From Sporosarcina sp. Te-1 (GTDB lineage: Bacteria > Bacillota > Bacilli > Bacillales_A > Planococcaceae), in the NCBI RefSeq assembly GCF_017498505.1, contig NZ_CP071798.1, positions 496,001-560,000 of the forward strand: a stretch of 64,000 nt of DNA, written 5' to 3'. Every line of letters starts with the position of its first letter. The stretch's first letter is position 1. Positions 50,941 to 52,358 of this stretch are shown in pieces. The notes below the pieces were generated by a model. The model did no database searches and was not told where the DNA came from. It saw nothing but the letters and a program-made list of their open reading frames with translations. Position numbers and translations under genes: made by a program.

Positions 50941-51696
50941 ATGAAGTTCGAAGAATTTGTTGGAAGGACAGTCTTTATCACCGGTGCGGGATCCGGAATT
51001 GGGCAAGCACAGGCATTCGCTTTCTTGGCGAATGGCGCCAACGTATTTGGGATGGATGTCGACGTGGCTGGCATGGAAACAGTTCAACGGATGCATCCAA
51101 CCCGCTTTCATTTTAGGAAGGGCGATGTGCGAAGCAAGCAGGAGATACAGGAGGCTGTGGAGATGGCATTATCCCGTTTCGATGACATCCATATTTTATT
51201 GAATACGGCCGGCGTGCTCGACGGCTATTCGAAAACGCTCGAGACAGACGAGGAACTGTGGGACCGCATCATGGATACGAATGTGAAAGGGACATACTTG
51301 GTAACGAATTGTGTGCTGCCTCACATGCTAGCACGGTCGTCCGGCATTGTGGTCAACATGGCATCGATTGCTGGTTTGGTTGCAGGAGGGGGCGGTGCGG
51401 CCTATACTGCCTCCAAACATGCGATCGTCGGCTATACAAAGCAATTGGATTATGATTATTGCCGGGCCGGCATCCGGGCGAACGCGATTGCCCCGGGCGC
51501 CATTCAAACGCCGATGAATGCCGCGGATTTTGAAGGGGACGGGGCAATGGCGAAGTGGGTGGCGGATGAGACGCCGGCGGGTCGATGGGCGCATCCCTCG
51601 GAAGTCGCCAATCTTACGCTTTTCCTGGCAAGTGTTGCATCAGATTATATGCATGGCACCGTTGTGCCGATTGATGGAGGGTGGATTGCAAAATAG
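50941..51696 (+). CDS. Short-chain dehydrogenase/reductase (FabG-like paralogue)
   Basis: A 251-residue SDR with cofactor motif ITGAGSGIGQAQAFAFL, MDVDVAGM (NAD-type acidic residue after beta2), LNTAGVLDG, catalytic Ser in MASIAGLVAG, YTASKHAIVG and the PG-motif IAPGAIQTPM. The terminal YMHGTVVPIDGGW matches 3-oxoacyl-ACP-reductase-like SDRs. Substrate unknown; the acidic residue suggests NAD(H). Start ATG at 50941 with GAGGAGG upstream. Confidence 0.88.
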   Translation: MKFEEFVGRTVFITGAGSGIGQAQAFAFLANGANVFGMDVDVAGMETVQRMHPTRFHFRKGDVRSKQEIQEAVEMALSRFDDIHILLNTAGVLDGYSKTLETDEELWDRIMDTNVKGTYLVTNCVLPHMLARSSGIVVNMASIAGLVAGGGGAAYTASKHAIVGYTKQLDYDYCRAGIRANAIAPGAIQTPMNAADFEGDGAMAKWVADETPAGRWAHPSEVANLTLFLASVASDYMHGTVVPIDGGWIAK

Positions 51697-51754
51697 TCGT
51701 ATTCAGTAATTAGTATTTCTGTTATTCTACCCAAGTAAGCTTAAAGGGCTTGCA

Positions 51755-51840
51755 CTGCGGCACTTCGTTCAGATATTATATCTGACTTCCTTTGGCCGTA
51801 GTTATGACTAAAATGGCGAGCGTGCCATTTTACAAAGGAG
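51755..51840 (+). promoter_or_regulatory. Pseudoknotted leader of queT, candidate preQ1 riboswitch
   Basis: Outer helix CTGCGGC (51755-51761) with GCCGTAG (51795-51801). Inside its loop is hairpin TCAGATA/TATCTGA (51769-51775 and 51779-51785). The loop bases TCCTTT (51788-51793) can pair with AAAGGA (51834-51839), the Shine-Dalgarno. Between them is hairpin AAATGGC/GCCATTT (51811-51817 and 51824-51830). This H-type pseudoknot with an embedded hairpin, closing on the ribosome-binding site, resembles the preQ1-II (COG4708) class known from queT genes. Identity as preQ1 is inferred from layout and gene. Confidence 0.5.
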
Positions 51841-51848
51841 AAATCATG

Positions 51849-52358
51849 ATGAATACGACTTCCTTCAAGGAAACCCCTCAATCCACTGTCAGTGAAGTGG
51901 CCAAAACTGCCATTGTCGCAGCTTTGTATGTCGCTGTCACCCTTCTTTTAGCGGTCATCAGCTTTGGTGCCGTGCAGCTCCGCCTTTCTGAAATGTTTAA
52001 TTATCTTGCGCTATTCCATAAACGGTATATCGTCGCCGTGACCCTTGGTGTCATTTTGGCGAATTTTATGTCACCCACTTGGATTCTCGACGTACCAATT
52101 GGCGGTATTGCAACATTCCTCGTGTTGCTGATTTGTCGAGCTGCGACGAAGAAGATAAAGAACTTGGTACTCAAATTTGTAGTGACGGCAGTCATCTTTG
52201 CATTTTCTATGTTCACAGTAGCAATCCAGTTGGCCTTCATATATGGTTCACCTTTTTGGCCGACTTGGTTCACCGTGGGCATCGGCGAGCTGTTATCCAT
52301 GACAGTTGGCGGTATGGTCGTCTACTCGTTGCAGAAAAAATTAGATTTTACGAAATAA
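51849..52358 (+). CDS. queT: QueT family queuosine-precursor (preQ1) transporter
   Basis: A 169-residue membrane protein with about five hydrophobic helices. Family marks: AVTLLLAVISFGAVQLRLSEMFNYLALF and DVPIGGIATFLVLL. QueT is an ECF-type substrate-binding (S) component for queuosine precursors, used with the shared ECF module. AAAGGAG at 51834-51840 serves ATGs at 51846 and 51849; I use 51849 (eight-base spacing). The leader folds over this Shine-Dalgarno. Confidence 0.87.
   Translation: MNTTSFKETPQSTVSEVAKTAIVAALYVAVTLLLAVISFGAVQLRLSEMFNYLALFHKRYIVAVTLGVILANFMSPTWILDVPIGGIATFLVLLICRAATKKIKNLVLKFVVTAVIFAFSMFTVAIQLAFIYGSPFWPTWFTVGIGELLSMTVGGMVVYSLQKKLDFTK

Follow-up and report, generated by a model that had tools for sequence, protein, structure and literature searches.

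The gene queT of Sporosarcina sp. Te-1, encoding a queuosine-precursor transporter, is preceded by a leader in which a pseudoknot covers the Shine-Dalgarno (SD) sequence and an extra hairpin is present, raising the question of whether this leader belongs to a known class of preQ1 riboswitch, is a variant of one, or represents a class of its own. The analysis was carried out on a stretch of 64,000 nt, hereafter the window, which corresponds to positions 496,001-560,000 of the forward strand of NZ_CP071798.1 (assembly GCF_017498505.1), the single contig of the 4.30-Mb genome. queT (51846-52358, + strand, as are all features of the leader) encodes a protein of 170 aa with a match to PF06177 (122.6 bits, 2e-35) and 92% identity to QueT of S. 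luteola. The leader spans 51735-51848 and contains, in the 5' to 3' direction, hairpin P1, helix P2 with hairpin P5 in its loop, the anti-SD strand, the 3' strand of P2, hairpin P4, and the SD. Upstream of it, we infer a candidate extended -10 promoter element from the sequence TGTTATTCT at 51720-51728 (+), since a consensus promoter scan did not pick it up; TGCTATAAT or TGTTATACT is found at the equivalent place in most relatives, and the element would probably put the transcript start at about the beginning of P1.

P1 is formed by pairing of 51735-51740 with 51748-51753, and P2 by 7 bp between CUGCGGC (51755-51761) and GCCGUAG (51795-51801). Inside P2, A51762 and G51794 form an A.G "ceiling" pair, followed by CUU (51763-51765) and by P5 (51769-51785), in which UCAGAUA (51769-51775) pairs with UAUCUGA (51779-51785) in 7 bp around a loop of 3 nt. 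The anti-SD strand (51787-51792) and U51793 complete the loop of P2. On the 3' side, the junction J2-4 (UUAUGACU, 51802-51809), in which UUAUNAC is conserved, leads to P4 (51810-51831), formed by 8-9 bp between AAAAUGGC (51810-51817) and GCCAUUUU (51824-51831), and then to A51834 and the SD AAGGAG (51835-51840). Unprompted folding of the leader recovered P1, P2, P5, and P4, and the minimum-energy fold without the pseudoknot had -36.7 kcal/mol (z = -3.64), with none of 200 shuffles as good. A first-pass annotation of the window had described a pseudoknot of 6 bp between UCCUUU (51788-51793) and the ribosome-binding site AAAGGA (51834-51839), together with an extra hairpin at 51769-51785, and both can be read directly in the sequence at exactly these coordinates. 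It had counted four helices of 6-7 bp, which is true of P2 (7), P5 (7), and the pseudoknot (6) but not of P4, and it had overlooked P1. Homology to preQ1-II favours a ligand-reading role for U51793 over pairing with A51834, and the pseudoknot helix P3 would then consist of 51787-51792 paired with 51835-51840.

Hexamers complementary to an SD are common, and the leader could thus be chance secondary structure in a short sequence without any riboswitch. Its relatives leave this reading a negligible probability, with structure, covariation, and context conserved across the 66 related loci obtained by a QueT search. The same leader architecture was present in 66 of 66, immediately before queT, in Sporosarcina, Lysinibacillus, Viridibacillus, Kurthia, Oceanobacillus, Virgibacillus, Lentibacillus, Cerasibacillus, Amphibacillus, Bacillus, Enterococcus, and Companilactobacillus. 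In an alignment of 93 leaders fitted to the model structure, changes on both sides were found in 24 of 26 pairs, and 96.2% of the cells were paired, compared with 85.0% after shuffling and 30-59% after sliding; double changes were seen in all six pairs of P1 and all eight of P4, and the cells of P2 were paired at 99.5%. Branches of the queT-gene tree on which both partners change and yet stay paired were then counted against 300 null replicates. P1 had 22 such branches (null mean 3.3, maximum 9), P2 15 (1.6, 5), P5 14 (0.55, 4), and P4 25 (1.3, 6). Covariation in queT leaders, the check proposed by the first-pass annotation, is therefore well beyond the tree-based null for these four helices. 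When all 5565 column pairs were tested on the tree in a stricter, R-scape-like way, only two P1 pairs had E<0.05 and none did outside the structure; the event counts per helix are far stronger evidence. P3 is invariant, as expected of an SD helix: CCUUU is the same in the relatives, the pairs are intact in 89 of 90 leaders, and AAAGGAG occurs in 89 of 90. Since invariance leaves covariation nothing to test, P3 rests on conservation and homology.

A short-chain dehydrogenase gene (50944-51696, +) lies directly upstream of the riboswitch-queT unit. Its counterpart was kept at 65 of the 66 queT loci with 53-93% identity, including those of Enterococcus and Companilactobacillus, and the contig of the 66th ends early. 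The four tested loci scoring above the cut-off of RF01054 (L072, L074, L076, and L081) had no match to it.

In searches against Rfam, no family reached its gathering score anywhere in the window. With permissive filters, the best of 4227 families on the leader was RF01054 (preQ1-II), with 25.6 bits (E 0.041 over all families) against a gathering cut-off of 47 bits; the alignment ran end to end from P1 to the AUG, over model positions 1-99, with large insertions including P5. preQ1-III (RF02680) had no match up to E 10 within 51500-52000, and preQ1-I (RF00522) had none at the leader even at E 10, its sole match in the genome being at the other queT. Of the three classes for which a covariance-model search had been suggested, only class II was thus returned, below its cut-off. 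Freshwater-2 (RF02980) was considered and rejected, as its match (21.6 bits versus 49.9 needed, E 0.49) arose from the SD tail and a fortuitous hairpin; a search of literature with few subscription papers found no paper on this family.

Two covariance models were used to place the leader relative to RF01054. R1, a model of the hairpin form, matched 42 of the 151 genomes sampled from the host's family, always once per genome; these represent 9 of 19 genera, and every parsed match stands before queT. In the host genome it matched a single copy at 103.8 bits, a score that, like those of the R1 source sequences, is partly by construction; the next best match had 18.2 bits (E 8.6). Dispersal of the element through the genome without queT, which the first-pass annotation had named as a ground for rejection, was accordingly not seen. 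Used alone, R1 reached none of the five supplied over-cut-off RF01054 loci at E<=0.01, and R2 was therefore made from leaders lacking the hairpin in order to examine the link. Twenty related loci were scored with RF01054, and such leaders from Bacillus, Enterococcus, Companilactobacillus, and Virgibacillus had 34-45 bits, just under 47. R2 included only hairpin-less Bacillales and Enterococcus-like leaders, with no over-cut-off RF01054 or hairpin-bearing sequence. It detected the window (60.9 bits, E 1e-10). Of the 17 over-cut-off RF01054 loci it matched 10, all co-located with the RF01054 match before queT, at E values of 0.001-0.23 in 130 kb that are each weak alone. No further match to R2 was found in a 249-genome sample of the phylum. 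Because R2 detects both, the hairpin-bearing leaders and canonical preQ1-II form one lineage. One leader from a Lactobacillales MAG (L068:884-986) combines a J2-4 of the streptococcal type, CAUAUUAC, with a P5 hairpin and scored 44.6 bits to RF01054; it is an intermediate between streptococcal preQ1-II and the hairpin-bearing variant.

The leader resembles preQ1-II (RF01054, COG4708 motif; known from Lactobacillus rhamnosus, 4JF2, and S. pneumoniae) in the order P1-P4, in the SD-sequestering P3 with P4 between P2 and the SD, in the H-type (HLout) P2/P3 pseudoknot whose P3 is formed by the SD itself, in the pocket nucleotides described below, and in its location before queT (COG4708/DUF988). 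It differs in the 17-nt hairpin between U32 and the anti-SD strand, where 16 hairpin-less relatives keep a short, hairpin-free loop, and also in the A.G ceiling (mostly G-C in preQ1-II), the J2-4 UUAUUAC (that of preQ1-II being the streptococcal type given above), and a longer, A/U-rich P4. As had been noted from the sequence, the extra hairpin departs from the textbook form; it is absent from the RF01054 consensus. With preQ1-III the leader shares the HLout pseudoknot and the gamma-mode pocket nucleotides (PMC11625349), whereas in class III the SD is far from the pocket. preQ1-I too controls a queT, including the second one of this host, but is a much smaller H-type fold.

The RF01054 score below the gathering cut-off and the additional P5 might instead indicate a distinct preQ1 class, convergent on an SD-sequestering pseudoknot and the pocket. 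Ten pocket nucleotides are common to classes II and III, which show no evident shared ancestry (PMC11625349), and for this reason pocket identity alone is no proof of class II. We consider such convergence very improbable, given the full P1-P2-P3-P4 order, the first A of the SD in a pocket position, the queT context, the continuous sequence intermediates (the hairpin-less leaders and L068) with cross-detection by R2, and the lack of matches to preQ1-III or preQ1-I at the leader. We take the leader, with high confidence, for a riboswitch of preQ1-II descent that would act as a translational OFF switch. Of the two options left by the first-pass annotation, the variant is supported over a new preQ1-sensing class by the topology, the pocket nucleotides, the position of the SD, the gene context, cross-detection, and covariation. 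The leader belongs to a diverged branch of preQ1-II that carries the hairpin and lies outside the curated RF01054, a new variant and not a new class, although an earlier mention in the literature is possible. No paper on preQ1 riboswitches of Lysinibacillus was found in a search that lacked most subscription papers.

The published pocket contacts of preQ1-II are C30, U31, U40, U41, A55, A70, and A71 (PMC11625349), and the canonical 12-nt loop from C30 to U41 maps by spacing onto CUU...CCUUU of this leader. By this mapping, CUU (51763-51765) corresponds to C30, U31, and U32, that is, the ligand-reading C and the major-groove strand; U51793 corresponds to U41, which reads the ligand edge, A51807 to A55, and A51834 to A70, with roles taken from the same study. 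The equivalents of C30, U31, U32, U39-U41, A55, A70, and A71 were invariant in a 45-sequence MAFFT alignment (A1) and identical in the Rfam-positive loci. A pocket parser was also run on 90 leaders; as it used CUU and YYUUU as anchors, the unanchored alignment is the cleaner evidence for the pocket.

By analogy to known class II members, which are translational OFF switches (PMC11625349), abundant preQ1 would sit between P2 and P3, kept in place by C51763, U51793, U51764, A51807, and A51834-51835. Bound preQ1 would stabilise P3 and bury the SD AAGGAG, turning off translation of queT; when preQ1 is scarce, P3 would open and the importer would be made. The host genome encodes Tgt (611 bits), has no match to QueC and none to QueF above the cut-off, a QueF-II match being sub-threshold (22.3 versus 86.9 bits). 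This gene content suggests that the host probably imports and salvages preQ1. A preQ1-II-type OFF switch on queT fits such a salvage economy, as import would stop when preQ1 is sufficient.

A further possibility weighed was that this preQ1-II-derived variant has come to bind preQ0, queuine, or a different deazaguanine, P5 or the A.G ceiling being part of the change. Altered-ligand variants exist in other riboswitch classes, and bacteria import other queuosine precursors as well. The ceiling is unlike that of most Rfam-positive members, being A.G in 88 of 90 leaders of the present branch and G-C or A-U in the Rfam-positive leaders. All ligand-contacting positions are unchanged, however, and the ceiling is reported not to be conserved even among canonical members (PMC11625349). 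Moreover, with no match to QueC and with QueF below its cut-off, Tgt would have to be supplied with preQ1 itself. A changed ligand therefore appears highly unlikely, and preQ1 is the expected ligand.

The site of P5 is either occupied or nearly empty. Among 90 distinct leaders, the loop was 19-32 nt long and folded as a hairpin in 74, and was 4-6 nt long in the other 16, with no intermediate lengths. About nine gains or losses were counted on the queT tree, compared with a mean of 15.1 and a minimum of 11 for shuffled labels. The stem sequence is wholly changed between groups with pairing retained, and the apical loop is unconserved; in single sequences, the stems were modestly better than shuffles (37 of 57 distinct loops at p<0.05). 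These features suggest a structural extension that is tolerated at a single site; a functional role is possible. In the leader from Enterococcus sp. BWR-S5 (L063:847 onward), approximately 100 nt are inserted at the P5 site, with the riboswitch flanks intact.

P5 could be a site for a second regulator, such as a protein, an sRNA, or an RNase, by which the leader integrates two signals; retention of the stem by covariation and its presence in 74 of the 90 leaders would agree with this. Against it stand the free variation of stem and loop sequences between groups, the lack of P5 in 16 leaders with the gains and losses described above, and the insert of approximately 100 nt at this site in L063, and we judge a second regulator improbable. 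In the window, P5 stops 1-2 nt before the 5' strand of P3, which would allow coaxial stacking beneath P3 on the side far from the pocket. Most likely, P5 is a structural extension stacked under P3 that would tune the stability or folding rate of P3 without contacting the ligand, a role we propose on the basis of its position at the end of P3 far from the pocket and its unconserved loop. Tentatively, and with low probability, Bacillales and some Enterococcus-like bacteria may have a structurally distinct subtype of preQ1-II, either with the covarying fifth helix under the SD pseudoknot as a working part of the switch that sets its kinetics or senses a second signal, or with an altered ligand preference. 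The naturally occurring leaders, which have or lack the helix at a single insertion point, offer a ready comparison for the tuning of a translational riboswitch by a distal helix.

preQ1-II has been reported as mostly limited to Streptococcaceae and Lactococcus (PMC11625349). Among 299 genomes sampled from the class, RF01054 was found in only 2 of 118 genera, over the cut-off in one (17 genomes, presumably Streptococcus), and was absent from the host's own family. With the present leaders, the lineage reaches 9 of the 19 genera sampled in that family, other Bacillaceae, and Enterococcus, all missed by the standard library at its cut-off.

The second queT of the genome (L001:1471-2007, - strand; genome positions 3245636-3246142) has a canonical preQ1-I riboswitch (56.7 bits). 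This genome, which probably depends on salvage, thus has its two QueT paralogues under preQ1 riboswitches of two unrelated classes. Across the family, several same-genus genomes with the preQ1-II variant have no or weak preQ1-I matches, and those without the variant have 2-3; this pattern within genera suggests class swapping with loss of de novo synthesis.
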